Below are positions 1,910 to 36,763 of a DNA stretch of 47,110 bases, one piece after another. The DNA is from a virus. The stretch's first letter is position 1. Each line of letters begins with the position of its first letter. Location: IMG/VR virus record IMGVR_UViG_3300030102_006012, positions 8,151 through 55,260 of that record. One strand, written 5' to 3'. The notes beneath the pieces are model-generated. The model was not told the DNA's origin, searched no databases, and saw only the letters and a program-made list of their open reading frames with translations. The position numbers and the translations under genes were made by a program.

Positions 1910-2407
1910 ATGCCTAGAATAAAAGACATACTAAGAGATCATATTTTATCGGCTGATGATAGGTTATTAGGAACAGATATTTCTGGTGTTACTAGAAATT
2001 ATAAACTATCAGATATAGCTAGCTTTGGAAATTTAGGTGCAACAGGTTTTGCTGATGTAACGTCAGCTGCTCCTGTGTCTGGTGATGCACATACGCATGG
2101 TATAGATTTAAATACAGCTGTAAATAATTATAATGTAACCGCTGTTAATGCGCCGAATAAAATAGTATTTGAAAATATAAACGCTAATGTAGTTGGTAAA
2201 ACAGGTACAATTGTAATAACGAATCCGTCTTCAGTTACTAGTTTAGCTTGGAGAGCATTTGATAATACCGTATATACTCCAGGTGGTGGTACTATTAATT
2301 TTGTTGCTACAGCAGATAATCTTGCTGTTTTAAATTATTTTGTAGCATCTACAACTAAAATATTAGTTAACTATGTAGGAAACTTCGGAATTTATCCTCA
2401 ATCTTAA
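1910..2407 (+). CDS. short tail-fibre-like structural protein
   Basis: 165 residues. The N-terminus (MPRI..., then SADDRLLGTD, then VTRNYKL about residue 30) resembles the N-terminus of the larger fibre gene in the right half, so the two probably attach to the virion in the same way. A linker follows with His residues (DAHTHGID). The C-terminal 90 residues form a beta-rich domain (GTIVITNPSSVTSLAW...FVATADNLAVLNYFV...STTKILVNYVGNFG), a layout I know from C-terminal domains of marine phage fibre proteins. It immediately precedes the giant Thr-rich gene, which supports a role at the tail or capsid surface. Confidence 0.7.
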   Translation: MPRIKDILRDHILSADDRLLGTDISGVTRNYKLSDIASFGNLGATGFADVTSAAPVSGDAHTHGIDLNTAVNNYNVTAVNAPNKIVFENINANVVGKTGTIVITNPSSVTSLAWRAFDNTVYTPGGGTINFVATADNLAVLNYFVASTTKILVNYVGNFGIYPQS

Positions 2408-2418
2408 ACTTTAGTTAA

Positions 2419-5412
2419 ATGAGATGGCTTTGGAACAGAATAGATTTTTGGAATACTGCTACAACTAAATCTACTAGCAAGAATACAACAAAGTCAACAA
2501 GTGTTGAAAAGCAAACTATAACTGCATTCAATACATCTACAAATACTGTTACAACATTTAATACATCTACATCTACATCCACAGTATTTAATACAAGCAC
2601 AAATACCGTAACAACCTTTGCTACATCAAAGTCTACAAATACTGTATTTAATACGTCTACAAATACAATAACTACATTTAATACTAGTACTAACACAACC
2701 ACGGTATTTAACACAAGTACAAGTACCGTAACTACTTTTGCAACATCAAAAGGAACAACCACTGCGTTCAATACTAGCACAAGTACAACTACTGAATATA
2801 ACACTTCAACAAGCACAGTTTTTAATACTAGCACTACAACCACAACCACTTTTAACACAAGTACTGCAACAAATACTATATTCAATACGAGTACAGCTAC
2901 AATCACAACTTTCAACACAAGCACATCAACAGTTACAACATTTGCAACAACTAGATCTACAACTACTACCTTTAGCACAACTAGAAGTACAGTAACCACA
3001 TATAATACCACAAGATCTACAACAACTGAATATAATACTACAAGAGCTACCACTACAGTATATAATACAACTAGGGCAACTACAACTGTATATTCTACAA
3101 ATAGAGCTACAAGTACAGTATACAATACATCTACTAATACAACCACTGCTTTTAATACATCTACTATAACTATTAAAAGTACTACAACAGCATTTAATAC
3201 GTCTACTAATACAGTAACGGTATATAATACTACGACAACAACTATAACAAGTTTTGGAACAACAGTGCCAACAAGTATTGCTACATCTACAACTATAAGT
3301 ACTACTAGATCAACAACTACAGAATATAACACAACGCGGTCGACAACTACGGAATATAATACGAGTACAACAACAAATACCGTATTTAATACTAGTACGC
3401 AAGTTCCACACGAAACATCGAGAACAACTACGTTTGCTACAACGCGATCAACTAATACAACTGTTTCAACTACTAGAAGTACAACAACCGCTTATACCAC
3501 AAGTTTTTCAACTAGTAGAATTACAAGTAAAGAAACAACAACTACTTTTAATACAAGTACAACTACGACGTTCAATACAAGTACATCTACAACGACTACT
3601 TATAATACGTCAACTGTAACGACAACAAGTACAACAACACAATTTAGTACTAATAAAAATACAACTACAACGTTTAACACTACTACTGCTACCAGCACGG
3701 TGTTCAATACATCTACTGTAACTAGTAAATCAACTACTACAACATTTAACACCACTACAGCAACTAGCACAGTATTTAACACAAGTACAACAACTGTATT
3801 TTCAACAACTACTGCTTATAACACAAGTACAACAACTTTAGAAAGCAGAAGTACAAGCACTGAGTATACTACGTCAACTACATTCAATACTACAACTGCA
3901 ACAGTTACAACATTCAATACGTCAACTGCAACAACTACTGTGTTTAACACTAGTACGAGTACTGTATTTAATACAACAACAACTTATAATACTAGTACAA
4001 CTACAACTGAAAGTAGATCAACAACAACTATATATACAACGTCAACCACGTTTAATACGACGACAGCAACAACCACAACTTTTAATACGAGTACAGTAAC
4101 TTCTAAAAGTACCACAACAACATTTGCTACTAATAGAAACACAACTGAAAGTAGATCAACTACCACAACTTATACTACAAGTACAGTATTTAATACAAGT
4201 AAAAGTACAACTACCGCTTATACTACCACATTTGCTACGTCAAGAAGTACAACAACAACATTTAGTACAAATAGGAATACAACAGAAAGTAGATCAACAA
4301 CTACGTTATATAGTACAACAACAACGTTTAATACAAGTAAATCAACATCAAAATCTACTACAACTACATTTGCAACTACAAGAACAACGACGACAACGTT
4401 TGCAACATCAAGATCTACAACAACCACATTCCAAACAAGTATTGTTACAAGTAGAACAACGACGTTTAACACTAGTAGAGGTACTGTAACTTCATTTAAT
4501 ACGGTTACAGCTTATAACACTACAACTACGTTTAATACATCTAAAAGTACACTTACGTCGTTTAACACTACAACCGCTTATAATACTACCACCACGTTTA
4601 ATACATCACGAGGTACCGGAGAATCGAGAGCTACTGGAACGTCTAGGAATACTACGACATCGTTTAACACAACGACTGCTTATAATACGACTACAACGTT
4701 TAATACAAGTAGAGGAACTACAACCACATTCAATACGGCTAGAGGTACTGGAGAAAGTAGAAGCACAACTACAGCTTACAATACTACAACTTCATTTAAC
4801 ACAAGTAGAGGCACTGGAGAGAGTAGAAGCACATCAACTGCGTTTAACACTACAACAACATATAATACAAGTAAAAATACAACAACTGTATATTCTACAG
4901 CCGCTGCGGTAACCGCGTTTGATTCAACTTCAAACAGTAACTTTAACTTTGTATGTCAAGAGTTCTTAGGGTCTACATATTATGGAAACAATGTATCTAG
5001 TGGATTACCGCAAGTAAGTTCAAATGTTTATACTAACTCAGGTGGTACAAGCGCATTATCTTCTGGTTATTATGGAGCAGCAAATACAAACTCTGTAGGT
5101 CCAACACACTATTTCCAAATCGGTGCTGGTGGTGTTGTTACAAGTTTAACTCAATGTTCTTTCGGTGGCGGTGGCGGACCAGGTGGTGGTTTCTCTGATA
5201 TATCTATGAAACAAAATATTAGATTTATGTATAAATCACCTAGCGGATTGAATGTGTACTCGTTTGAATACAAGGATGATTCGTTTGGTAAAGGAACACA
5301 TCAAGGAGTTATGGCACATGAGGTTGAGCATATTGATGGAGCTGTAATAAACTTCAAAGGTAAAAAATGGGTCAACTATAACAAGATAGATGTAGAATTT
5401 AAAAAAATATAA
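2419..5412 (+). CDS. giant Thr-rich repeat fibre with C-terminal S74 chaperone domain
   Basis: 997 residues. A short aromatic head (MRWLWNRIDFW) leads into about 800 residues of degenerate 10-residue repeats of the form [F/Y]-N-T-S-x-x-T-x-T-x, where nearly every second residue is Thr. The early part is uncharged (FNTSTNTVTT). The later part brings in Arg/Lys and Glu (FNTSRGTGESR). Residues about 830-915 form a non-repetitive globular piece, then a Gly-rich linker. The last 72 residues match the Peptidase S74 intramolecular chaperone: SDISMKQNI with candidate catalytic Ser926 and Lys931, then GLNVYSFEY, GVMAHEVE and WVNYNKI. S74 domains help trimeric fibres fold, then cut themselves off. I infer a trimeric fibre. 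The ligand is unknown. Confidence 0.85.
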   Translation: MRWLWNRIDFWNTATTKSTSKNTTKSTSVEKQTITAFNTSTNTVTTFNTSTSTSTVFNTSTNTVTTFATSKSTNTVFNTSTNTITTFNTSTNTTTVFNTSTSTVTTFATSKGTTTAFNTSTSTTTEYNTSTSTVFNTSTTTTTTFNTSTATNTIFNTSTATITTFNTSTSTVTTFATTRSTTTTFSTTRSTVTTYNTTRSTTTEYNTTRATTTVYNTTRATTTVYSTNRATSTVYNTSTNTTTAFNTSTITIKSTTTAFNTSTNTVTVYNTTTTTITSFGTTVPTSIATSTTISTTRSTTTEYNTTRSTTTEYNTSTTTNTVFNTSTQVPHETSRTTTFATTRSTNTTVSTTRSTTTAYTTSFSTSRITSKETTTTFNTSTTTTFNTSTSTTTTYNTSTVTTTSTTTQFSTNKNTTTTFNTTTATSTVFNTSTVTSKSTTTTFNTTTATSTVFNTSTTTVFSTTTAYNTSTTTLESRSTSTEYTTSTTFNTTTATVTTFNTSTATTTVFNTSTSTVFNTTTTYNTSTTTTESRSTTTIYTTSTTFNTTTATTTTFNTSTVTSKSTTTTFATNRNTTESRSTTTTYTTSTVFNTSKSTTTAYTTTFATSRSTTTTFSTNRNTTESRSTTTLYSTTTTFNTSKSTSKSTTTTFATTRTTTTTFATSRSTTTTFQTSIVTSRTTTFNTSRGTVTSFNTVTAYNTTTTFNTSKSTLTSFNTTTAYNTTTTFNTSRGTGESRATGTSRNTTTSFNTTTAYNTTTTFNTSRGTTTTFNTARGTGESRSTTTAYNTTTSFNTSRGTGESRSTSTAFNTTTTYNTSKNTTTVYSTAAAVTAFDSTSNSNFNFVCQEFLGSTYYGNNVSSGLPQVSSNVYTNSGGTSALSSGYYGAANTNSVGPTHYFQIGAGGVVTSLTQCSFGGGGGPGGGFSDISMKQNIRFMYKSPSGLNVYSFEYKDDSFGKGTHQGVMAHEVEHIDGAVINFKGKKWVNYNKIDVEFKKI
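2518..4905 (+). repeat. coding repeat block, Thr/Ser/Asn decamers (first gene)
   Basis: About 80 tandem units of roughly 30 bases encode [F/Y]NTS-type decamers, broken in places by insertions such as KSTTT, ESRSTTT or RGTGESR. The amino-acid repeat is tight, but the DNA is not: Thr is written with all four ACN codons and Ser alternates between TCN and AGY, so neighbouring units differ at many bases. The strand is rich in A and C and poor in G, which also leaves other frames and the opposite strand open for long distances. Confidence 0.9.
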
Positions 5413-5414
5413 TT

Positions 5415-5963
5415 ATGTTTAATGAAGATTTAATACCATTATATAACGGACAAAACTTTGTCGTAGAAAAAGAAACTAAACAACTTAATGCAGAAGAAAC
5501 GTTTACGATGTCCATATTTAAATACAAAGAGGATGTGTGGCATAGTAGATACAATCATGAAATACCATCTGCAAAATATGTAGGTGATTGTGAATCGTGT
5601 GGATGGAATCCTAATACTTATGATGATGTTACATGGGGAGACGTATTATATTTAGGTTTATACTTAGGTTGTACACCTGAATATATATATAATAATAAAT
5701 CGGTTACATCAATAGATGTAGTTGAGGAAGATCAAGAAATAATAGATTATGTTACTTGGATTAATAGTAATATTAATGTTATACAACATAATGAGTGGAC
5801 ATATACACCAAATAAAAAATATGATTTAATTTTAGTTGATTTATGGGCAATGCCTGCAGATATAACTGATGATCACAAACAATTGCTATTAGATAATTAT
5901 AGTAGTCATTTAAAAGAAGGTGGTAAAATAATATTACCGCAAGCACAAGAAATACTGAATTAA
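5415..5963 (+). CDS. SAM-methyltransferase-like (spermidine-synthase-type) protein
   Basis: 182 residues with the strand order of a Rossmann methyltransferase: GDVLYLGLYLGCTPEYI (residues 75-91) as a degenerate glycine motif I, VTSIDVVEED (97-106) with the acidic end of strand 2 that holds the ribose, INVIQHNEW (120-128), YDLILVDLWA (136-145) as motif IV, and LKEGGKIIL (166-174) as strand 5. Motif I has fewer glycines than usual, so SAM binding is uncertain. The gene sits between the two Thr-rich repeat genes with two-base spacing on both sides. I infer that it acts on those proteins or their decoration. The substrate is unknown. Confidence 0.65.
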   Translation: MFNEDLIPLYNGQNFVVEKETKQLNAEETFTMSIFKYKEDVWHSRYNHEIPSAKYVGDCESCGWNPNTYDDVTWGDVLYLGLYLGCTPEYIYNNKSVTSIDVVEEDQEIIDYVTWINSNINVIQHNEWTYTPNKKYDLILVDLWAMPADITDDHKQLLLDNYSSHLKEGGKIILPQAQEILN

Positions 5964-5964
5964 A

Positions 5965-8502
5965 ATGCCAAATACAAGTAGAAGTACAACAACAACGTTC
6001 GCAACATCAAATGCAACAGGTACTAGTAGAAATACTACTACTGCGTATAATACTACTACAACATTTGGTACTTCAAGAGGTACGGGTGAAAGCAGAAATA
6101 CTACGACTGCTTATAATACTACAACCACATTTAACACTAGTAAGAATACAACAACTACATTTAATACCGCAAGAGGCACAGGTGAAAGTAGATCAACTGG
6201 AACATCCAGAGGTACATTAACTTCTTTTAATACAACAACTGCATACAATACCACAACTACTTTCAATACAGCAAGGGGTACGGGTGAATCCAGAGCAACC
6301 GGTACTAGTAGGAATACAACTACAACTTTCAATACAGCGAGAGGAACAGCTGAAAGCAGAAATACAGGCACGTCAAGAAATACAACCACTACCTATAATA
6401 CCAGTAGAACAACTACGTATACAAGCTTTTTTAATACAAGCAGATCAACTACTACTACGTTTAACACAAGTCAGTCTACGATTACTACGTTCAACACGAG
6501 TACGACTACAACTACTGTATATACAACTACGTTTGCAACTAGTAGATCAACGGCAGAGTCAAGAAGTACGACTACTACTTATACAACTAACACTGTATTT
6601 AATACATCAACCGCTACAGTTACAGCGTTTAACACATCTACTATAACAACCAAAAGTACAACAACTACATTTGCAACTAGTAGAAATACAACTGAACAAA
6701 GATCTACAACAACTACATATACAACAAACACGGTATTTAACACGTCTACAGCAACTATAACAGCTTACACGACAACATTCTCAACATCGAGAAGTACAAA
6801 TACTACGTTTGCTACATCAAAAAATACAACAGAGCAAAGAAGTACAACTACAGTATATTCTACTACAACGGCTTATAATACAAGTACGACAACAGCAACC
6901 AGTAGAACAACAACTGTATCTACATCTAAATCTACGACTACTGCTTATAATACAACAAGAAGTACTAATACAACATTTGCAACGTCTAGGAATACTCTTG
7001 AAACAAGAAACACAACAACTACATATTCAACGACAACTACGTATAATACCAGTACAAGTACATTAACAAGTAGAACGACAACTGTGTCTACTAGTAAATT
7101 AACTAATACTGTTTATAGCACAAGCAGAAGTACAACAACTTCTTTTACAACAACGTTTAGCACAAGCAGAAATACAAATACTGTGTTTGCAACAACAAGA
7201 AGTACAAATACTGTATTTAACACGAGTACAACAACAATAACTGCATATACAACTACTTTTTCAACTAATAGAAGTACAACGACAACGTATAATACAACGA
7301 GAAGTACACAATTGCAAGAAACTAATAAGAGTACAACTACAGTGTATACAACAACGTTTAACACTAGTACTATAACTTCTCAGTCAACTACAACAACATT
7401 CAATACAGCAACCGCGACTGTAACAACATTTAACACAAGTACAACGACTGTATATAATACAAGTACTCAAATACCTCAGTCTACAAATAGAAGTACTACA
7501 ACAACGTATAATACTAGTACAAATACAACAACAACATTTAATACTAGTACAAATACTATTACAACGTTTAACACGTCAACAAATACAATTACGGTATTTA
7601 ATACAAGTACTGCTACAACTAAATCTACTGTAACAACGTATACAACTAGCAGGAGCACTACAACAACGTTTGAAACAACAAGAAGTACAAATACAGAATA
7701 TACGACAACGTTTGAAACGTCAAGATCAACTAGTACTGTTTATAATACAAGCACTAATACAACAACTGTATTTAACACGTCAACATCAACTACGACAACT
7801 TTTAATACAAGCACAAGCACTACTACAACATTTAATACTAGCACAAGTACAGTTACAGAATACAATACAACAACGTCAACTATTACAACGTTTAATACAT
7901 CAACATCAACTATAACAACGTTTAATACATCAACGACAACAACGACTGAGTATAATACAACTAGAAGTACCACGACGACATTTAGTACAAACAGAAATAC
8001 AACTACTGAATATAATACAAGTAAGAGTACAACAACCACTTACGAAACTTCTAGAACAACAGAATACAATACAACAACTAATACGGTTACAACATTTAAC
8101 ACTAGTACAACAACGACAACAACCTTTAATACAAGTACGTCAACGGTAACTACATTTAGTACATCTAGATCAACAACAACACAATATAATACTACTAGGT
8201 CTACTACTACAACTTTTGAAACTAATATAAGCACAACAACTACGTTTAATACTAGCACATCAACAGTAACAACATTTAGTACCAATAGAAATACAACAAC
8301 AGCGTACAACACAAGTACAAGTACTACAACAACGTTCCAAACAACAGAAATTACACATACTACGTTTAATACAACAACTGATATAACTACTAGTTTCAAT
8401 ACATCATTTACCGTACAAACCTCGTGGTATATAGACGCTGAACCAGTTAATCAGCCCGGAACTAGGGTTAATCACCCAAGGAACACAAGTACGGCTTTTT
8501 AG
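5965..8502 (+). CDS. giant Thr-rich repeat protein without chaperone domain
   Basis: 845 residues, nearly all repeats of the same kind as in the upstream gene. It has no separate N-terminal anchor: repeats begin by residue 4. The first 130 residues are the Arg/Glu-containing type (FNTARGTGESR). The rest shifts to the uncharged FNTSTSTTTT type, the reverse order of the upstream protein. The last 35 residues (SWYIDAEPVNQPGTRVNHPR...) form a short non-repetitive cap that I do not recognise. No signal peptide or S74 domain is seen. It is probably a companion fibre or a second part of one fibre. Start chosen at the only ATG next to the upstream stop. Confidence 0.8.
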   Translation: MPNTSRSTTTTFATSNATGTSRNTTTAYNTTTTFGTSRGTGESRNTTTAYNTTTTFNTSKNTTTTFNTARGTGESRSTGTSRGTLTSFNTTTAYNTTTTFNTARGTGESRATGTSRNTTTTFNTARGTAESRNTGTSRNTTTTYNTSRTTTYTSFFNTSRSTTTTFNTSQSTITTFNTSTTTTTVYTTTFATSRSTAESRSTTTTYTTNTVFNTSTATVTAFNTSTITTKSTTTTFATSRNTTEQRSTTTTYTTNTVFNTSTATITAYTTTFSTSRSTNTTFATSKNTTEQRSTTTVYSTTTAYNTSTTTATSRTTTVSTSKSTTTAYNTTRSTNTTFATSRNTLETRNTTTTYSTTTTYNTSTSTLTSRTTTVSTSKLTNTVYSTSRSTTTSFTTTFSTSRNTNTVFATTRSTNTVFNTSTTTITAYTTTFSTNRSTTTTYNTTRSTQLQETNKSTTTVYTTTFNTSTITSQSTTTTFNTATATVTTFNTSTTTVYNTSTQIPQSTNRSTTTTYNTSTNTTTTFNTSTNTITTFNTSTNTITVFNTSTATTKSTVTTYTTSRSTTTTFETTRSTNTEYTTTFETSRSTSTVYNTSTNTTTVFNTSTSTTTTFNTSTSTTTTFNTSTSTVTEYNTTTSTITTFNTSTSTITTFNTSTTTTTEYNTTRSTTTTFSTNRNTTTEYNTSKSTTTTYETSRTTEYNTTTNTVTTFNTSTTTTTTFNTSTSTVTTFSTSRSTTTQYNTTRSTTTTFETNISTTTTFNTSTSTVTTFSTNRNTTTAYNTSTSTTTTFQTTEITHTTFNTTTDITTSFNTSFTVQTSWYIDAEPVNQPGTRVNHPRNTSTAF
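5971..8400 (+). repeat. coding repeat block, Thr/Ser/Asn decamers (second gene)
   Basis: About 80 further units of the [F/Y]NTS-type decamer. Variants include TTRSTTTEY, FATSRNTTEQRSTTT and AYTTTFSTSRST, with occasional spacers (IPQSTNRS, LQETNKS). Codon choice is scrambled between units, as in the first block. The start of this block most resembles the end of the first block (AYNTTTTFNTSRGTGESR). Confidence 0.88.
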
Positions 8503-8554: not shown

Positions 8555-9454
8555 ATGGAAATGTTTAACAAAAAGGAGCTTGACAGTAGAATAGGCCCCT
8601 TAAAAAAAGACAAGAAGTTATATGATCTTGAACAAGTTGAAGGTTATGTAATTAGAAAAGCTAGTGAAAGAGGTCTTGAATCTAGCTATGATGTTATGGC
8701 AGAAGAAATGCCATACTTTAAAACTTTAGCATATACAGAATATGCAGGTTGTTTTTATTTGCAACCATTAAACTACAAAATAAGAAACGAACAAATGATC
8801 GATGCTGCTCAACCTAGCGGCGAAGAAGTTGTAGATTACTCATCTTGGTTTGTAAATAGAATTGTAAATAATTCAGCAAACAAGTATAGCGAAAGAGATG
8901 AAAAAGCTTTTGCAAAGTATGAACCAAAAGATTACTTAGTAGTTTTACCAGGTTCTAATAAGGTTAGAGAAAACGTATGTTTAAATAGATTGAAACATAT
9001 AAGAAGTAAACACGGTAATAATGTATACTTTAAGCCACATCCTATAACAACACATCAAATTATAGGTGAACTAAAAGATTTCTTTGGTGAAGAAAATATA
9101 CTACCAAGAAATATAAATATGTATTATTACTTGCAAAAAGCTAAAGGTGTATATACAACTCATATAAGCGAAAGTGCAGTATATAGTGTTGTTATGAATA
9201 AGCCTACAGAACCTATAGATGTTTGGAATAACATACAGCGTGGATCTTTTTATTGTATAAATAATCATTTATTATATAATCAAAAAGACGCAAAGAACTT
9301 TGTAAATAAAACTTTTTCAAATTATAAATCAGGTATTATAAATCCTGAAATAGATAAAAACTGGAAAGTTAAAGTTGATAAGTATATAGATTATATATGC
9401 GACAAGAGAGAAAAATATAAAGGGTGGTTTGTAAACGAAGCACCAAAAAGATAA
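8555..9454 (+). CDS. GT-B / capsule-synthesis-type glycosyltransferase-like protein
   Basis: 299 residues, cytosolic. Residues about 125-225 carry YLVVLPGSNKVREN, then NNVYFKPHPIT, then NMYYYLQKAKGVYTTHISESAVYSVVMNKPTEPI. The KPHP step followed by a 'Ser/Glu-x-x-x-Tyr' helix after a short strand is the signature region of capsule polysaccharide, polysialyl- and CDP-glycerol-type transferases (GT-B fold, nucleotide-sugar binding in the C-terminal half). It follows the Thr-rich repeat genes after a 52-base gap. A role in glycosylating phage fibres or altering host surface glycans is possible. Donor and acceptor cannot be read from sequence. Confidence 0.6.
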   Translation: MEMFNKKELDSRIGPLKKDKKLYDLEQVEGYVIRKASERGLESSYDVMAEEMPYFKTLAYTEYAGCFYLQPLNYKIRNEQMIDAAQPSGEEVVDYSSWFVNRIVNNSANKYSERDEKAFAKYEPKDYLVVLPGSNKVRENVCLNRLKHIRSKHGNNVYFKPHPITTHQIIGELKDFFGEENILPRNINMYYYLQKAKGVYTTHISESAVYSVVMNKPTEPIDVWNNIQRGSFYCINNHLLYNQKDAKNFVNKTFSNYKSGIINPEIDKNWKVKVDKYIDYICDKREKYKGWFVNEAPKR

Positions 9455-24479: not shown

Positions 24480-25739
24480 ATGGCAAAAACATTAGACATT
24501 GGTTATTTTAACTCTATATTTATTAAAAGTGATGAATTTGCAGAAACTGCAAATGTTCCAACTAATAGATATTATATAGAAGAGGCAAGAATAAAAGGTG
24601 GATTTAATGAAACATTTATGGAGCCAGGTGTTAGAGCGTATGCTGTTAATGATGATTATACTGTTATAAATAGAAAAAATGCAATGATTTATTCTGGTAT
24701 TTACAATTCAAGAACTGGAATAAACGAAACAAATCAGTTTCCTATAGGTGCAGCAATTACAAAAGCAGTTGATATAACAGACGGTTCAATACAAAAGTTG
24801 CATGCAGAAGATCGTGAGCTATATATATTACAAGAAGATAAATGTAATGCTGCTGGTATAAATAAAGATTTTATATTTACAGCTGAAGGAAATCCATTAT
24901 CAACGGCATCAAACTTAGTTATTGGACAAGTAAGAACGTTTTTAGGTATATATGGAATAAGCACAAACCCAGAAAGTTTTGCAGTTAAAGGTAATAGAAA
25001 GTACTTTACAGATAAAAAAAGAGGTGTTGTTATAAGATTAACAAGAGACGGTGTTACTGAAATATCAAACTTTGGTATGAGAGATTATTTTAAAGATAAT
25101 CTTAAGTTAAATACAAACTTAATTGGCATGTATGATAATGTAAAAGATCAATATATTTTACATTTAAAAGAACAAAGTAAAACTATTGGGTTTGATGAAT
25201 CTTCAAAAGGCTGGACTAGTTTTTATACTTTTTATCCTGAAAATGGTTTTACTTTAAACGGCACTATGTATACTTTCAAAAAAGGAAATATATATGCACA
25301 TTATCAAAATACAGATTATAATGTATTTTATGGACAACCAGCCGACGAATCTAACATAACAACAGTTATAAACACGGATGGTTCAGTAGTTAAAACTTTT
25401 AAAACATTAGGTTATGAAGGTACAACAGGTTGGTCTGCAAGTGATATAAAAACAGATTTAGATAGTGGATCTTATACAGATTTAGGTGTGGATATTGCTA
25501 AAGCTGATTATAGTTTTAATGCAGATTATATATTACCATCAATGTTTAAGAAAAAAGAAAATAAATATTTTTCAATTTTACAAAATGGATCAATAGCAGG
25601 TCAAGAAGACGAAGTGTTGTTTGGAGGAGAAGTTTCAGGTATAAAAGGAATGTACTTACATGCTAAATTAAAAACAACAGAAAATACTAAACAAGAATTA
25701 TTTACGGCTTTAAGTGAAACCGTAATATCATCAAAATAA
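24480..25739 (+). CDS. muzzle/stabilisation protein, second part
   Basis: 419 residues. Blocks such as YYIEEARIKGGFNETFMEPGVRAY, NAMIYSGIYNSRTGINETNQF, GSIQKLHAEDRELYILQEDK, NPESFAVKGNRKYFTDKKRGVVIRLTRDGVTEISNFGMRDYF and KTFKTLGYEGTTGWSA are ones I associate with the C-terminal half of the single long muzzle protein of related phages. Here they begin with their own ATG, 45 bases after the stop of the upstream gene. The frame carries no leftover N-terminal domain, so this looks like a true split gene rather than a recent frameshift. The two products probably assemble together. Confidence 0.7.
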   Translation: MAKTLDIGYFNSIFIKSDEFAETANVPTNRYYIEEARIKGGFNETFMEPGVRAYAVNDDYTVINRKNAMIYSGIYNSRTGINETNQFPIGAAITKAVDITDGSIQKLHAEDRELYILQEDKCNAAGINKDFIFTAEGNPLSTASNLVIGQVRTFLGIYGISTNPESFAVKGNRKYFTDKKRGVVIRLTRDGVTEISNFGMRDYFKDNLKLNTNLIGMYDNVKDQYILHLKEQSKTIGFDESSKGWTSFYTFYPENGFTLNGTMYTFKKGNIYAHYQNTDYNVFYGQPADESNITTVINTDGSVVKTFKTLGYEGTTGWSASDIKTDLDSGSYTDLGVDIAKADYSFNADYILPSMFKKKENKYFSILQNGSIAGQEDEVLFGGEVSGIKGMYLHAKLKTTENTKQELFTALSETVISSK

Positions 25740-28411: not shown

Positions 28412-31400
28412 ATGGCAGATCCAAAAATTTTATATAATAATTTATTTTCTAATAAATTATATTCAAAGTCTTATGACGATTTTTTAGAGCAATATGACAA
28501 CGAAGAAGGGGTTCAAAAATTGCATAATAAATTATCGCAAAATAGTTTATATTCAAAAGATTTTGATGCATTTAAAGAACAGTATAAACTGGGAAAGCAA
28601 AACGACCCTGTACAGGAGACTGCGAGTGTAGGGTCGGAAAACCTAAGCAGTACGGATTCCAAATTGGATCTTGGTTCATCGGGATCAGCACCAAGCAGAG
28701 CTAATATTTTAACTGGAGGTGCGGGTAAATTTACTCCTCAAGAACAAGAAGATTTTAAATACTTTGAAAATATAAGAACTAGAAAATCAAATGCCATTAC
28801 CCAATCGGACTTTGAGGAAGAAAAAGTACAGCCAGAATTAATGAAAAGATTTGGCAAATATGGTTTTGTTTTTGAACAAGCAGGTATAGGTGATTTTATA
28901 AAAGTATCTACAACTGATGCTGAAAATCCTATAACAAAAACATTTAAAATTAACAAAAGAGATTTATTCAGAGGAGGAAACAGTTTTGATGAATTAGAAG
29001 AATTTGTTAAAGCAAATAAAAAAAGCGCTGTAGGTTATGCTTCACCTAAAAAACTTGAAGAATTTGATCTTAAAGAATTTCAAAGATTGAAAAAATCAAT
29101 GATAGAATCTGGAGGTGATGGTAAAGTTCAATTTAAAGGAAGCTCTGGTGAAATGTATGACGAAGATCAAACTGAAGAATTATTTGCTGATCATTGGTAT
29201 GCTAGCCGAGGGTTTAATTATAAAGACATAAAAAACCTTAAAAATAAAAGTAAAGATAATCAAGAAAGAATTAATTTTATTGAACAACTTCAATTTAAAA
29301 CAACAAGGTATCAACAACCCGGTAGTGTACCAATTCCATTATCAATAAAACTTTTAGCGCCAGATATTATGAAAAGATCATATCAAGGCACTGAAGAGGA
29401 AATAAAAAAATATCCTGAATATTTTGATCAAAATGGCTTTGCAAAAAGAGATGTTTTAAAATCAGAATTAGAAAAATTTAAAAAGGAAAATAAAGACTAT
29501 TCAAATATAACTACTAACCCTGATTTTTTAAAAGCAGAAGGCGATTTAAATTTATTTTATGCTGATATTAAAAATAAAGCTGGAGCTGAAATTGAAAAAG
29601 AAATGCCTGTAATTGAACAAGAGCAGAAAAAACTACAGCAAGAATGGGAACAAAAATATGATTTAAAATTTAATAACGAAAATTTTGAATTAAAAGTTAA
29701 TGAATTTAACAGTCAAATAGATAATGCAACAAAAGAAATTGAACAAATTATTGGCGGTGATATTAGTAAATTAGAAAAATATAAACCAAAAAGTAAAGAA
29801 GAAGAAAGTTTATTAAATTCAAAAATAGATGCGTTAAACACTATTGTTAATAATGCAAAACCTTTAAATGATTTTTCTACTAAACACAGTGCACTATATC
29901 AACGTTCTAAAAATTTAAACGATTTAAATGAAATTTCAACAATGTTGCTTAACTTTGATGATGTACAAAGAACTAGAGGCGAGTATACAGACCAATATAA
30001 GAATTTTTTAAATAATATAAAAAGTGGCTGGAGTAGTGGTAAAATCAATTCTACTATTATGTCAGAACTTTACGGCGGTGTTGACATGGATAATCCTGAT
30101 GATGCTGCAAAAGTTGCAAAATTAATAGCCACAGAAAAAGCATACCAACAAGGTATATTAAATTCTAGAGTATACGAACAATACTTAAATGCTGACTCTG
30201 TTGCGGAACAATTAAAATTATTAGGTCAAAATCCATTTGAAATTTCTACAGCTTTATTTGGAAATTCAATGAGCCAATTAATAAGAAGTGGTTCAAAAAT
30301 ATTTTTTCCAGTTGTAGGAGCTGGCGCAGCAACGGGCTCTGCAGTTCCAGGTGTAGGTACAGTTGCAGGAGCAGGTAGAGGATTACAGGTATGGACAGGG
30401 CTTGCTGGTTTTGGTATGGAATATGGAAACGCATATTTAGATATTATGCAAGAAAATGGAATAGATATAACCAATGCCGAAGCAGTAGAAAAAGCTTTAA
30501 TGAATCCTGAAATACAAAGTCAAGCAAGAGAAAAAGGAATTAAAAGAGGTATACCTATAGCGATTGCAAACTTTATGAGTGCTAAAGCAGCATCTATGAT
30601 GGTAAAACCTTTGGCAACCGGTGGTGAACAATTTACAAGAGCATTAGGTTCACAGCTTATAGTACAGCCTGGATTTGAATTTAGTGGAGAAATGTTAGCG
30701 CAACGAACTGCTGGTGAAGATTTAAGTTTTACAGAAGGGTTTAATGAAGCTATTGGTGGTATTGGAGGTACTTATCATAATGTTGCTTTTGAAATGTACA
30801 AAAATTCAACAAAAGGGTTTTCAGTAAAATTAGCAAATAATCTTACTAATTTAGATAACATGGTTAACGGTAACTATGATGGCAAACAGGTTATTAAATT
30901 TGTAGATAGATTAAAAAAGAAAAAATTTATTAGTGAAAAAGTTGGAAATAAAATATTAGCAAATTCCCAATTACTTGATGAAGCAAATGCTAAATTAGGC
31001 GATAAAGCAAATAATAAAAATAGAGCTAGGCTTGCTGACTTATTGCATACAAGAAAAATGATTACTGATCAAAATACAAAAAGCAACAAGCTGGGTGATA
31101 TTGATCAAGAAATAAGTAAGCTAAGTTCAACAGGAGAAATTAGTGAAAGCGGAGTTCTTACTTTCAATGATTATATAAAAAATTATGAAGGTGGTATTAA
31201 AAATGGATTAAGCTTTTTAAAATCATTAGGTGTTGCTGACGATGTATCACTTGTAGAAAGTGACGAAAATGGTAATTTTAAATTTACTGATGATATATCC
31301 CCAGAGTTGCAAGAAGCAGTAAATAATTCAAATTCTCCTGCTTTTATAACACCATATACTGAAGGAAGTAAACAACTTATATTCTTAAATAAAAAGTTAA

Positions 31401-34400
31401 TAAGAGATCTCGGCACTGAAGCACAGTTTGAATCAAAATTAGATGTATTGTCTGCGGCTATGCCTCATGAAGTATTGCATGCTGTTTTAGACCGTACTTT
31501 TACTGATGAAGAAATAATAAACATTAGTAAAGATTTAAACAATTATTTACAAGAACAGTCTGGTAAAGGAATATCTGAAGGTACTGTAAATGATATATTA
31601 AGTAGGTTAAAAAATACTTACGGTGAATATAAAGAAGATGGAACATTTGTAGGTAAAAAACAAAAAGACGGAAGTGTATATACGGAAGCACAATATGCAC
31701 AAGAAGTTTTTACTTCAATATCTGATGAAATAAACATTGGAAATATTGATTGGAAAAGACAAGACGCTGGATTTTGGCAAAACTTTGCTGATAAAATAAA
31801 TGATTATTTTAAATATAAATTAAAATTATCAGCTGATGAAATAAACAAAGCTAATATTAAGACTGGCCAACAAGCGTTTGATTTTTTAAAAAATTACAAT
31901 AAAACCTTTGCAAAGTCAGGAAGAATTAAGCTTGGTCCTATTACAACACCCAAAGCACCTGTAAAAGAAGAAGAAATAAAAACTAGAAAAGCTGAGTTTA
32001 ATATACAATTAGAATCAGATAGATTAAAGGGTATAGCGAAGCTAAACGCTAAGATACAGGAAAATGAAGACATGGGGCCTGGCAACGCGATAATGAGACA
32101 AAGAATAAGAGAAGAAATTGAATCGCAAATAGAAAAGGTTAATGAATTAGAAACGCAAAATACAGCAAATGAATTAAGAGAAAAGCTTAAAAATGCAAAA
32201 GGAATAAATAGAGAAAATATACAACTCGCATTACAAGAAAAATTTGCTGCGTTTGAAGGAGAAGTTGAAACCGCAGGATTAAATATTGAAACAGGTAAAT
32301 TTAGAAGCTCTGATGTAATAACTGATTTAGGCAAACAATTTAAAAACGATTTAGATGAAGGTTTACTAACAAATGAATTATTAGCCCAAACTTTTAATTC
32401 GCCTTCAACCAATGACTCATCAAAATTTTCTATTACTGAAGCAATTGTTGAACACAATTGGCCTGTAATAAGCAGTGCTTTAAAGTTTACACCATCTGGT
32501 CCATATACAATGGAAAATGTAAAAGATGCTGTAAAAGAACAATTAAATGGTATATTTCCTGCAATGCAAGGTTTTTCTGCAAGAAAAATACCTGTGTTAA
32601 AAAATTATACAGGACCTGAAAAAGTTACAACGTATTTAGGCTCTGTATTTGGGCGTAGAAAAGCAGAGATATTTGAAAGAGCTAAAAAAATGGGTGATCA
32701 AGTTCTTGAAGAAAGTTTTAGCACAGAAACAATGACTGAAACAGAATTTAAAGAAACTACAACTACAAAAGAAACAAGAGTAAATCCATTAGAATATAAG
32801 AATGTAAAGAATAATGTTGATGCTATAAAAGATGCTGTTAAGGTTAATGAAAAAAATTACAAAGGATTAACTTATAAAAAGCTATCTGATAAGTTTGCTG
32901 GTAAAGTTGGTAGTATAATGTTTGATATACCTGCAAATAAAATTGATAATCCAAAAGCTAATTTAACTTATGCTAAAAGAATAACTGATGGTATTCCTGA
33001 ATCCTCTGAAGCAGGTAATATACAAAGGGATTTAGCCGATGCAAACGAAGTTAGAAAGTTTGTAAAATCACTGGCACCTGAAAATATATCTGGTGACATA
33101 TCTATACTTGATGAATCTGGATTAAAAGTTGAAGTTTCAAAAGAAGCAAAAAATCTTTCTATAGGTTTACCTAGAAACGTTTTAAATTTCTTTTATGATA
33201 ATACTGGTAAAAGAAGACAAAACTCTTTTGTACATAAATTAAAACCTGAATTTACTGGAAAAATATTAAATGAAACAATTGAAAAAGTACAGTCTGAATT
33301 TGCAGGTATTACAGAGGCTGGTCAATTAAATAACTACGATAGAAAAATTGGTCAGAACTTAAAGGGTTATGCTAAGGTAAAAGCAGCAAATACTGTAAAT
33401 AAAATTGCGACTGATAAAATAGAAAACTTAGATATAAAGCCAGATGCAAGACAACAAGCTAGAGCAGATGCTGCAGCAGGTAAGTCAAACTTTTTATATT
33501 CTGATGTAGGGTTAACATCGGAAATATTACCGCAAGAAAAAGTTGATAGTATACTTGATAGAGAGTTTATTTTAGAAGCTGAGGCTGCTGTAGAAGGAAG
33601 AACTAAAATAATAAACAAAGTTTTAAAACACCTTGGTATTAAAGAAGCTTACGATCTTCAAACAAAAAAAGGAATTGATGATTTTGCAGACGCATTAAAA
33701 GAACACGTCTTTCCATATTTTCCAAAAGATGCTTTTTTTGCAACAAAAGCTATAATGAGAGTCAGCCGTCGAATTGCTGGTGACATGGACACTTATTATC
33801 AAGAAAAATTAGAAGAGTTAAAAAATGATGATAGTATAGTTTATGGTGAAAATTATACATATACAAATGAAGAAGGTAAAGAAGTTGATATAGATAATTT
33901 ATCTCAATCTTCATATGATACAATGATAAAAACTCCTGAAAAAATTGCTAGAAATTTAATTGTTGGTAAAAAAGATGGTAAATCACCAATACAAAAATGG
34001 AATGAAAAAAATATGCGTATACATCGCGCTATGTGGGAAAGAACAAATGAAGCTATAAAAAATGATCCTACAGAAGGTAAAGAAGCAGCTAGAGCATTAG
34101 CGGTATATTATTCTTTTGTTAGCAATAATAAAAATCATCCGCATAGATTAGGCGCTGAATTTGTAGGGTATTCATTAAATCCTGAAGGAGTTGTAAATAA
34201 AAATGGTATTTTAAAATTATACGAAATGGAGCACGCAATGCCCGCTACCGGTGCATATGCTTATTTATTTGATAGTATATTAACAAATAGAAATTTTAAA
34301 GCAGACTACAATGCTATCGTTGATAATTATAAATTAATTGCTTTAGATGCAAAAGAAAACAAAAAGCTAGCTAAGGCTGGTGTTGGAACAAGTATGTTAC

Positions 34401-36763
34401 CTGGTTGGAAAGTAATGTCAAACTTCTGGTGGCAAAGATACTTTAATACAGCTGTTGGAAATATTAACGGTGGTATTGATGTAAATAATATTATATTTAC
34501 AGACGGCAAATCAATTGGACAAACGTTTGGTATTAATAATCAAGGCGAGTTTGCAACAAACCAAACAGCAAAAAATAATATTAAGAAAGCACCATTGTTA
34601 AGAGGCTCAGATGTAAACGTAGATAATAATAATTCTGTATTAGATAAGGCTCAAAAAATTGATGATATGAATGCTAAAATGCAGCAATCATATTTTAATG
34701 AAGTTGATTTAGATGCTGACTTTAATAAAATTATTGAAGAAACAACTGGTGTTGCTAAAGAAAAAAGATATAGCGATGCTAAAGCAAAAGTAGCAGGAAG
34801 AAAGAAAGGAAGATTTGATATATTTATTCCGCCACAAGCAGAAGACTTTATGGGTCTTATGTATAAATTTATGGGTAAAGGAAAAATAGGAGAAGGACAA
34901 ATTGCTTGGGTAAAAGAAAATATTTTAGATCCATTTGCAAGAGGTATAAATAATTTATCTAACGCTAGAATAGCTATGTTAGATGATTTTAATGCTATGA
35001 AAAAACAAGTTGGTATAAAGAATAGAGACTTAACTGTTGAAATACCAGGAGAGCCATATACTAAAGAAGATGCTGTAAGAGTATATGCTTTTAATAAAGC
35101 TGGCCATACTATTCCAGGGTTATCAAAAACAGATGAAAAAACATTAGTTAATTACGTAAGAAAAGACCCTAAGCTAAAGAAATTTGCAGATGGTTTAATA
35201 GCCACATATAAAAATGATAGTTATCCAAAACCAGATGAAAGCTGGGTAGCTGGTACTATTGGTTTAGATATGGCAGAACATATTAATAACTTTAAAAGAA
35301 GTGATTATTTAAAACAATTTAATGAAAATATTGATAGAATATTTACTAAACAAAATTTAAATAAGCTAGAAGCTTTATACGGTAAAAAATATAGAAATGC
35401 TGTAGAAGATATAATCCGTAGAATGAAAAGTGGTGTTAACAGGAAGCCTGCTAAAGACAGCATGGTTCAAGGGTTTATTGATTGGATGACTGGCTCAATT
35501 GGTGTTACAATGTTCTTTAACTCAAGATCGTCATTACTACAAACAATATCTACTGCTAATTTTATAAATTATAGTGATAACAACATATTTAAAGCTGGTT
35601 TGGCTTTTGCAAATCAAAAACAATTTTGGAAAGATTTTATAAATTTATTTAATTCTAAATATTTAAGAGACAGAAGAGGTGGATTAAAATTAAATGTAAG
35701 TGAATCTGATATCGCTAGTATTGCAAAGAAAAGAGGTGCAAAAGGAGTTATTGCTAAAATATTACAAGTAGGATTTTTACCTACACAAATGGCAGATAGT
35801 TTTGCGATTTCGTTAGGTGGTGCGTCATTTTACAGAAACAGAATAAAAACATATGAAAAGCAAGGAATGACCACAGAACAAGCTGAAGCTCAAGCATTTT
35901 TAGATTTTAAAGAAACAGCTGAAGAATCTCAACAATCAAGTAGACCAGATAAAATTAGTAAAGAACAAGCAAGTGAATTAGGTAGACTTGTTTTAGCTTG
36001 GGCAAATACGCCTGCTCAGTATGCAAGAATGAAAAAGAAAGATATTCTTGATATGATAAATAGAAGAAGAATACCTGGTAAAACTTTATTACAAAGTGAT
36101 ATAATAAGAATGCAAAGAATTACTTACTATGCAGTTATACAAAATATTTTATTCAACGCATTACAAAAAGGTTTATTTGCATTAGCGTTTACAGACGAGG
36201 AAGAAGAGGAATATAAAAAACAATACTTTGATGTAGGTAACAGTATGGCTGACTCAATATTAAGAGGTATGGGAACCAAAGCAGCTTTCTTTTCAGTGGC
36301 AAAAAATGCAGTTATAAAATTAATACAAGAGTCTGGTAAAAAGAATCCTGACTATGAAAAAGTTGCTGATGAATTTGTTGCTTTATCTCCACCTATTGAT
36401 GCTAAGTTTACAAGACTACAAATGGCAGCTAGAAGTATGAAATGGGATATGGACGAAATGAAATCTGAAGGTTTGAGTTTAAAAAATCCAGCTTGGATGG
36501 CGGCTGCAAACACTACAGCTGCGCTTACAAATGTGCCCGTAGATAGAGTTTTAAGAAAATATGATCATGTTAGTACCGCGGTAACACAAGATTTAGACGC
36601 ATGGCAAAGGTTAGGGTTACTTGGTGGTTGGACAAAATATCAATTAGGTGTTGATGAAGATCCTAAACCAAGAGTTAATCCTGCAAATCATGGAAACAAA
36701 TATAAAAATTTAAGAACACCAAAATTGAGTGGTGGAAATTTAAGAACACCAAAACTAAGATAA
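28412..36763 (+). CDS. giant internal virion (ejection) protein with HExxH motif
   Basis: 2783 residues, the largest gene here. The first 60 residues contain two copies of an 'LYSK-S/D-F/Y-D-x-F-x-E-Q-Y' motif, known to me from N-termini of huge virion proteins in related phages. Residues about 630-670 are Gly/Ala-rich and hydrophobic (VVGAGAATGSAVPGVG), a possible membrane-entering segment. PHEVLHAVLD at 1018-1027 is a zincin-type metal-binding motif (His1019, Glu1020, His1023). The C-terminal third has a conserved-looking block (LVLAWANTPAQYARMKKKDILDMINRR, TYYAVIQNILFNALQ). It ends in a doubled NLRTPKL. It is probably injected with the DNA; a peptidase activity is inferred. Confidence 0.75.
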   Translation: MADPKILYNNLFSNKLYSKSYDDFLEQYDNEEGVQKLHNKLSQNSLYSKDFDAFKEQYKLGKQNDPVQETASVGSENLSSTDSKLDLGSSGSAPSRANILTGGAGKFTPQEQEDFKYFENIRTRKSNAITQSDFEEEKVQPELMKRFGKYGFVFEQAGIGDFIKVSTTDAENPITKTFKINKRDLFRGGNSFDELEEFVKANKKSAVGYASPKKLEEFDLKEFQRLKKSMIESGGDGKVQFKGSSGEMYDEDQTEELFADHWYASRGFNYKDIKNLKNKSKDNQERINFIEQLQFKTTRYQQPGSVPIPLSIKLLAPDIMKRSYQGTEEEIKKYPEYFDQNGFAKRDVLKSELEKFKKENKDYSNITTNPDFLKAEGDLNLFYADIKNKAGAEIEKEMPVIEQEQKKLQQEWEQKYDLKFNNENFELKVNEFNSQIDNATKEIEQIIGGDISKLEKYKPKSKEEESLLNSKIDALNTIVNNAKPLNDFSTKHSALYQRSKNLNDLNEISTMLLNFDDVQRTRGEYTDQYKNFLNNIKSGWSSGKINSTIMSELYGGVDMDNPDDAAKVAKLIATEKAYQQGILNSRVYEQYLNADSVAEQLKLLGQNPFEISTALFGNSMSQLIRSGSKIFFPVVGAGAATGSAVPGVGTVAGAGRGLQVWTGLAGFGMEYGNAYLDIMQENGIDITNAEAVEKALMNPEIQSQAREKGIKRGIPIAIANFMSAKAASMMVKPLATGGEQFTRALGSQLIVQPGFEFSGEMLAQRTAGEDLSFTEGFNEAIGGIGGTYHNVAFEMYKNSTKGFSVKLANNLTNLDNMVNGNYDGKQVIKFVDRLKKKKFISEKVGNKILANSQLLDEANAKLGDKANNKNRARLADLLHTRKMITDQNTKSNKLGDIDQEISKLSSTGEISESGVLTFNDYIKNYEGGIKNGLSFLKSLGVADDVSLVESDENGNFKFTDDISPELQEAVNNSNSPAFITPYTEGSKQLIFLNKKLIRDLGTEAQFESKLDVLSAAMPHEVLHAVLDRTFTDEEIINISKDLNNYLQEQSGKGISEGTVNDILSRLKNTYGEYKEDGTFVGKKQKDGSVYTEAQYAQEVFTSISDEINIGNIDWKRQDAGFWQNFADKINDYFKYKLKLSADEINKANIKTGQQAFDFLKNYNKTFAKSGRIKLGPITTPKAPVKEEEIKTRKAEFNIQLESDRLKGIAKLNAKIQENEDMGPGNAIMRQRIREEIESQIEKVNELETQNTANELREKLKNAKGINRENIQLALQEKFAAFEGEVETAGLNIETGKFRSSDVITDLGKQFKNDLDEGLLTNELLAQTFNSPSTNDSSKFSITEAIVEHNWPVISSALKFTPSGPYTMENVKDAVKEQLNGIFPAMQGFSARKIPVLKNYTGPEKVTTYLGSVFGRRKAEIFERAKKMGDQVLEESFSTETMTETEFKETTTTKETRVNPLEYKNVKNNVDAIKDAVKVNEKNYKGLTYKKLSDKFAGKVGSIMFDIPANKIDNPKANLTYAKRITDGIPESSEAGNIQRDLADANEVRKFVKSLAPENISGDISILDESGLKVEVSKEAKNLSIGLPRNVLNFFYDNTGKRRQNSFVHKLKPEFTGKILNETIEKVQSEFAGITEAGQLNNYDRKIGQNLKGYAKVKAANTVNKIATDKIENLDIKPDARQQARADAAAGKSNFLYSDVGLTSEILPQEKVDSILDREFILEAEAAVEGRTKIINKVLKHLGIKEAYDLQTKKGIDDFADALKEHVFPYFPKDAFFATKAIMRVSRRIAGDMDTYYQEKLEELKNDDSIVYGENYTYTNEEGKEVDIDNLSQSSYDTMIKTPEKIARNLIVGKKDGKSPIQKWNEKNMRIHRAMWERTNEAIKNDPTEGKEAARALAVYYSFVSNNKNHPHRLGAEFVGYSLNPEGVVNKNGILKLYEMEHAMPATGAYAYLFDSILTNRNFKADYNAIVDNYKLIALDAKENKKLAKAGVGTSMLPGWKVMSNFWWQRYFNTAVGNINGGIDVNNIIFTDGKSIGQTFGINNQGEFATNQTAKNNIKKAPLLRGSDVNVDNNNSVLDKAQKIDDMNAKMQQSYFNEVDLDADFNKIIEETTGVAKEKRYSDAKAKVAGRKKGRFDIFIPPQAEDFMGLMYKFMGKGKIGEGQIAWVKENILDPFARGINNLSNARIAMLDDFNAMKKQVGIKNRDLTVEIPGEPYTKEDAVRVYAFNKAGHTIPGLSKTDEKTLVNYVRKDPKLKKFADGLIATYKNDSYPKPDESWVAGTIGLDMAEHINNFKRSDYLKQFNENIDRIFTKQNLNKLEALYGKKYRNAVEDIIRRMKSGVNRKPAKDSMVQGFIDWMTGSIGVTMFFNSRSSLLQTISTANFINYSDNNIFKAGLAFANQKQFWKDFINLFNSKYLRDRRGGLKLNVSESDIASIAKKRGAKGVIAKILQVGFLPTQMADSFAISLGGASFYRNRIKTYEKQGMTTEQAEAQAFLDFKETAEESQQSSRPDKISKEQASELGRLVLAWANTPAQYARMKKKDILDMINRRRIPGKTLLQSDIIRMQRITYYAVIQNILFNALQKGLFALAFTDEEEEEYKKQYFDVGNSMADSILRGMGTKAAFFSVAKNAVIKLIQESGKKNPDYEKVADEFVALSPPIDAKFTRLQMAARSMKWDMDEMKSEGLSLKNPAWMAAANTTAALTNVPVDRVLRKYDHVSTAVTQDLDAWQRLGLLGGWTKYQLGVDEDPKPRVNPANHGNKYKNLRTPKLSGGNLRTPKLR

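Follow-up and report, generated by a model that had tools for sequence, protein, structure and literature searches.

Introduction

The T4 gp37 needle is a six-stranded antiparallel beta structure that runs out to the tip and back (PMC9659904; PMC7291167) and is ~150 A (about 15 nm) long (PMC3004832). T4 gp5C is instead composed of Gly-containing octapeptides forming a three-start intertwined helix (PMC3004832). Here, we analyzed a phage locus encoding two Thr-rich proteins, A and B, which resemble gp37 and the related lambda Stf tips in that their strands would be antiparallel, with layers coming alternately from the down and the up strands. However, gp37 is a single chain that supplies each strand pair, folds back at its receptor-binding head and carries His-metal layers, whereas the out and back strands of A/B are encoded by two genes. 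Furthermore, the gp37 needle is ~15 nm long, while the A/B arms comprise 440 to 1,200 residues and carry a Thr/aromatic/Lys-Arg code. No sequence relation was detected between A/B and gp37. Protein A also resembles the Peptidase_S74 fibers and spikes (endosialidase type) in its C-terminal S74 domain with an invariant Ser-Asp but differs from them in its shaft, which is of the antiparallel Thr-rich type and paired with a second protein. A full-text search of the open-access literature found no prior description of a fiber of this kind.

Because A and B match residue by residue when one of them is read backwards, we consider it very probable that they make up a single long phage tail fiber, A as the outgoing strand and B as the returning one. 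We also judge it likely that this represents a wider arrangement, in which chains from two separate genes, whose arms reach up to ~1,200 residues, zip together antiparallel over their full length by a residue code (aromatic opposite Lys/Arg, in staggered layers), evolve in length by matched mirrored indels and derive from single-chain hairpins found in unrelated phages. Such a fiber would allow the pairing code of an extremely long beta fiber to be read from sequence alone, would be a case of coevolution between genes at the single-residue level, and would explain a class of low-complexity phage open reading frames (ORFs) lying outside the profile libraries searched, one miniature in PHROG 30374 excepted.

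Results

Organization of the A/B locus

The window analyzed, a stretch of 47,110 nucleotides, belongs to a virus record of 55,260 bases (IMGVR_UViG_3300030102_006012). Its terminase is 61% identical to that of an uncultured podophage from Manatee Spring, 45% to those of Flavobacterium Elemovirus phages and 36 to 39% to those of Cellulophaga phages. Upstream (5') of the terminase gene lie, in this order, genes for a small protein, A, a small Rossmann-type protein, B and a glycosyltransferase-like protein (Table 1); in some relatives, annotated tail-fiber, S74 or structural genes occupy the region 5' of the terminase. The two repeat genes had initially been annotated as adjacent, but the non-repeat Rossmann-type ORF intervenes between them. 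Gene A is the first gene of such an A-x-B unit in 28 nonredundant pairs, that of the window included. These pairs come from metagenomic phages and are related by descent, and they are therefore not 28 independent tests; almost all relatives come from metagenomic contigs, whose repeats could have been assembled wrongly.

Table 1. Coordinates of the features of the A/B locus in the window
Feature	Position	Strand	Basis
Upstream small protein, candidate tail adaptor/anchor	1910..2407	+	Profile matches
Gene A, 997 aa: Thr-rich arm, tip domain and S74 chaperone domain	2419..5412	+	ORF
A arm, aa 1-840: unbroken Thr/aromatic dipeptide-parity strand	2419..4938	+	Parity, autocorrelation
A tip domain, aa 841-925, non-repeat	4939..5193	+	Alignment of relatives
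Peptidase_S74 intramolecular chaperone domain of A	5194..5409	+	PF13884
Small Rossmann-type protein between A and B	5415..5963	+	PF01564 weak match
Gene B, 845 aa, almost arm alone: putative return arm	5965..8502	+	ORF; antiparallel partner of A
Downstream glycosyltransferase-like protein, phrog_26179	8555..9454	+	PHROG match, linkage

The non-repeat tip and the Peptidase_S74 domain at the end of A were absent from the initial annotation. The tip is conserved in relatives (YYGNNVSSGLPQVxSNVY..THYFQIGAGG), and the S74 domain begins at Ser926-Asp927 (SDISMKQNI), which is invariant in all 10 aligned sequences. PF13884 scored 19.5 bits over the whole of A and 23.6 bits with the C-terminal part alone (curated cutoff, 22), and it was matched by 9 of 10 relatives. 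At its N terminus, A harbors a Trp-rich motif, MRWLWNRIDFWNT, which is likely the virion anchor.

The upstream small protein is related to tail-fiber proteins of Elemovirus and of MW202828. Profile matches to it were found 5' of A, 5' of the single-chain fiber of the L017 type described below, and also in L010, L011 and L015; it is a probable tail adaptor or anchor. The Rossmann-type protein is weakly spermidine-synthase/methyltransferase-like (PF01564, E = 0.006, below the cutoff). Its homologues (20 matches) are confined to split A/B loci, where they lie between A and B, and it perhaps has a role in assembly or modification.

The glycosyltransferase-like gene lies 3' of the fiber and next to it in all loci checked, 35 single-chain and 10 split. 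In a scan of bacterial genomes for this neighbor, one locus was recovered, and it lies on a phage contig deposited within a Flavobacteriales metagenome-assembled genome. A Foldseek search with the AF2 model of the protein (pLDDT 86) retrieved the Kdo transferases KrkA/KpsC (E 7e-5, TM 0.35-0.46). Given the gene linkage and this weak fold match, the enzyme may glycosylate exposed Thr/Ser of the arms, a suggestion that we make with low confidence.

Elsewhere in the window, positions 24480-25739 match the crAss-phage muzzle protein domains PF25731 and PF25729, and the phage that carries this crAss-type muzzle domain is related to Elemovirus, Pachyviridae and Pervagoviridae. A small, very basic protein (995-1282) matches the C terminus of PHROG 10346 and several uncharacterized PHROGs. 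The largest ORF of the window (28412-36763) encodes 2,783 amino acids.

The arms are built on a two-residue unit

The arms total ~1,670 repeat residues (A 1-840 and B 1-830), in line with the ~1,600 first estimated, and Thr, which makes up 39.6% of A and 45.9% of B, indeed occupies almost every other position in both. The decamer originally taken as the repeat unit fared less well. Autocorrelation at lag 10 is real, reaching 0.446 in A (0.259 when shuffled, z 15) and 0.409 in B (0.257, z 11), and the most frequent segment is [FY]NT[S/T][T/R/K]xT[T/V/I]T[T/V]. However, ten is merely the commonest spacing, found in 39 of 78 segments of A and 41 of 76 of B, the others measuring 4, 6, 8, 14, 16, 22 or 24 residues. 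Since the aromatic spacings are even in nearly all cases, the invariant unit is the dipeptide. Indels preserve this two-residue phase, which fits a two-faced beta strand that runs without interruption.

Thr, Phe/Tyr, Arg and Lys lie on one face, whereas Ser, Thr, Asn, Ala and Val lie on the opposite face. Arg amounts to 8.8% of the aromatic face and 0.3% of the opposite one, and Lys to 6.7% and 0.3%. Our first reading had been that the aromatics form buried core layers; because Lys/Arg are almost exclusively on the aromatic face, we no longer prefer it.

The Pfam and PHROGs profile libraries yielded no family for the arms, and a search of PDB sequences with A returned antibody-linker chance matches alone. 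Against phage records, tblastn gave no match for A or for the L040 single-chain protein and one weak match for L017, probably because the low-complexity filter masks these proteins.

A and B are in antiparallel register

When B was compared with A by BLAST, the matching pieces fell in reverse order along A. In the window, the B residue that stands across from A residue n is 831-n (lag -15). Cross-correlation of the aromatics placed the best antiparallel lag within -21 to +6 of an end-to-end alignment in all of the first 11 pairs, and the signal was clearly above segment-order permutations in 9 of them; in this set, cognate pairs also beat most non-cognate ones. Over 28 pairs, the antiparallel z was 4.7 to 15.9 in 27. 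Parallel pairing was rejected: its optima were scattered in the first 11 pairs, and z ranged from -2 to 4 across the 28 without a consistent register. Neither A (z 0.0) nor B (z 1.1) alone is palindromic.

The antiparallel cross-correlation has two equal peaks ten residues apart, which led us to a staggered model of the aromatics. At the midpoint between the peaks, the two sets of aromatics combine into an almost regular ladder, in which 93% of the gaps in the window measure 3 to 7 residues (z 10.9; permutations averaged 62%). The wider a gap between aromatics of one chain, the more partner aromatics it holds: mostly 0 for gaps of 6 residues, 1 for 10, 2 for 14-16 and 3 for 22 (none in 215 of 225 gaps of 6; one in 566 of 612 gaps of 10). 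This aromatic-gap test gave a weak signal in L116 (z 1.6), and the signal was also reduced in the longest pairs, L029, L037 and L121.

As a positive control, the HxH layers of T4 gp37 merged to gaps of 7, 9, 9, 7, 7 and 7 when the chain was folded at residue 945, inside the receptor region (932-965); this control comprises seven HxH motifs only, and its apex was chosen to minimize the gap spread. As in the gp37 needle, out and back strands in A/B run antiparallel and in register, and layers come alternately from both strand directions. The HxH metal-binding core of gp37 has no match in A/B, His accounting for 0.5% of A and 0.2% of B.

Arm lengths and indels mirror each other

Across the 28 pairs, the length of A equals 1.009 times that of B plus 151 (r 0.9992), and the mean difference between the end of the A arm and the length of B is 1.5 residues (s.d. 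6.2). Between L034 and L036, A differs by a 68-residue segment (125-192) and B by one of 68 residues as well, which maps to A 126-193 at lag -10. Similarly, L037 and L121 show 12-residue differences at A 566 and 999, and the corresponding 12-residue differences in B map to 573 and 1002. Relative to L022, the window carries changes of -40, -56, +12 and +24 in A and of -40 (as 20+16+4), -56, +12 and +24 in B; the 56-residue indels are adjacent and not coincident, at a place where the repeat alignment is ambiguous. At the level of sequence, these comparisons show arms of equal length that run antiparallel from one end to the other and keep their register down to the single residue.

These results bear on whether the repeats are simply low-complexity, mucin-like tails, disordered or glycosylated, with a pattern of mutational origin. 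Their high Thr/Ser content and the glycosyltransferase-like neighbor at every locus checked would suit such tails, but the signal disappears in controls in which the identical segments are permuted in order, and indels are compensated between two genes, so that we find this reading most improbable. The preference for a beta rod over disorder that was voiced at the outset is strongly supported, since strict two-residue parity, equal arms and mirrored indels are unexpected of disordered chains. What finds no support is the picture of two separate rods with the decamer as structural unit: the evidence makes A and B antiparallel partners within one fiber.

Lys and Arg face the aromatics of the partner chain

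In the window, 39% of Lys/Arg are directly opposite an aromatic of the partner (null 14%), and in other pairs up to 74% are (null 12-20%). The lag was chosen to maximize Lys/Arg contacts, one parameter per pair, and permuted sequences given equal lag freedom stay at 12-20%. The rule holds in all 28 pairs (z 8 to 42), including those weak in the gap test. When positions were stratified by their own distances to neighboring aromatics, Lys/Arg was found in 65% of those with an aromatic opposite versus 6% of those without (Mantel-Haenszel odds ratio 14.6, 28 pairs). Judged from these counts, the pairing rule is more than a by-product of the repeat motif. For the A of the window, the cognate B ranks first of 28 Bs, and a single lag stands out of ~1,680. 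In the register so defined, the aromatics of one chain preferentially face Arg/Lys (or Thr) of the partner and fall between its aromatics.

If A and B instead formed two separate homotrimeric fibers of equal reach, their lengths would reflect a shared span and not pairing. Homotrimers are the majority of known phage fibers, and equal arm lengths by themselves would fit. Such fibers would leave unexplained, however, the antiparallel register to the residue, the Lys/Arg found opposite partner aromatics given their own context, the cognate specificity and the mirrored indel positions, and neither protein is self-palindromic. We therefore regard separate fibers as improbable.

Model of the A/B fiber

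In the one-fiber reading, each chain would be one continuous beta strand along the fiber, and three A and three B chains would alternate to give a six-stranded antiparallel needle like that of T4 gp37. A bipartite needle-type fiber with A3B3 stoichiometry is probable, the 3:3 ratio being suggested by the S74 domain and the T4 analogy. Ser, Asn, Ala and Val would face inside, a choice made from composition, and Thr, aromatics, Arg and Lys outside, with cross-strand cation-pi rungs. The N terminus of A and the C terminus of B would lie proximal to the virion, where the upstream small protein would serve as adaptor; the last ~15 residues of B (PGTRVNHPRNTSTAF) overhang the N terminus of A, and the N terminus of B (MPNTSRSTTT) is placed at the tip end. 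The C-terminal domain of A would be the distal, receptor-facing tip, and the S74 domain would fold the A trimer before probably being cleaved off at the predicted site, Ser926. The count of dipeptide units would set the fiber length, very roughly 200-270 nm provided that the strands run along the axis.

Antiparallel A and B could also wind as a beta-helix-like tube or prism, or assemble at a ratio other than 3:3 (such as A2B2 or a single A-B ribbon), and the fiber would then be shorter. The ten-residue periodicity could then be one face of a triangular prism, and the A/B shaft is, like the gp5C triple-stranded beta-helix, repetitive and beta-structured. But the arms lack turn residues and corner Gly, and they keep their parity through many different spacings, which sets them apart from the Gly-containing octapeptide of the T4 gp5 triple beta-helix (PMC3004832). 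Moreover, A/B display dipeptide parity and antiparallel register where the gp5C type has a Gly-containing 8-residue repeat and parallel intertwined chains. We consider these arrangements possible but rather unlikely.

Single-chain relatives and miniatures

Scans of viral contigs recovered further Thr-rich proteins with different ends. These relatives, mostly metagenomic, spread beyond Bacteroidota phages, Thr-rich miniatures being present in Vibrio phage KVP40 and in Caulobacter phages. All complete single-chain relatives (26 distinct, 711-1621 aa) show a palindromic aromatic pattern over their full length, with a central apex (z 4.4 to 18) of non-repeat, variable sequence, and the Lys/Arg rule holds in them (z 9-32). 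In truncated ones, the palindrome is little or absent (z up to 4.7). AF2 modeling of a 201-aa hairpin tip segment from a two-sequence alignment gave a pLDDT of 31, and the model was discarded. Two single chains (L050:1005-5222 and L053:865-4977) are 20 aa shorter than close relatives, with symmetry z of 5.4 and 6.7 versus 9-15, and are either slippage mutants or products of repeat collapse in assembly.

Single-chain fibers occur in unrelated phages, the head-gene set of L017/L021 differing from that of the window, and single-chain loci and the window have flanking genes in common. Palindromic single chains with the tip at their center suggest that A/B corresponds to a hairpin cut in two, and the unit probably arose by splitting of an ancestral single-chain hairpin fiber at its tip. 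The simplest history would be a hairpin split whose outgoing half carries an S74 tip domain. Likely receptor-binding tips can be located mid-protein in the single-chain types and at the C terminus of A in the split type.

Among isolated relatives, no such Thr-rich proteins were found in the stretches compared of Elemovirus, phi46:3, phi38:1 and Gundel_1. The cultured Caulobacter phages BL199 and Lullwater encode Thr-rich proteins of 215-217 aa (L098:7321-7974; L181:2327-2974), between the annotated tail fiber gene and the same glycosyltransferase-like gene as in the window, with a weak hairpin signal near residue 113. As mini hairpins, these proteins (BL199 gp042 and Lullwater gp41; Lys/Arg p about 0.03 each, aromatic test null) and a near-identical ERS protein (p 0.15) were rejected. 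In the cultured, T4-like Vibrio phage KVP40, KVP40.0254 (L180:4151-4744; 197 aa), which falls in PHROG 30374 without functional annotation, lies two genes 5' of a homologue of the window's glycosyltransferase-like gene. Its 114-aa Thr-rich end fits the hairpin code, with the apex at 56 of 114 (p = 0.003) and p = 0.01 for the Lys/Arg rule.
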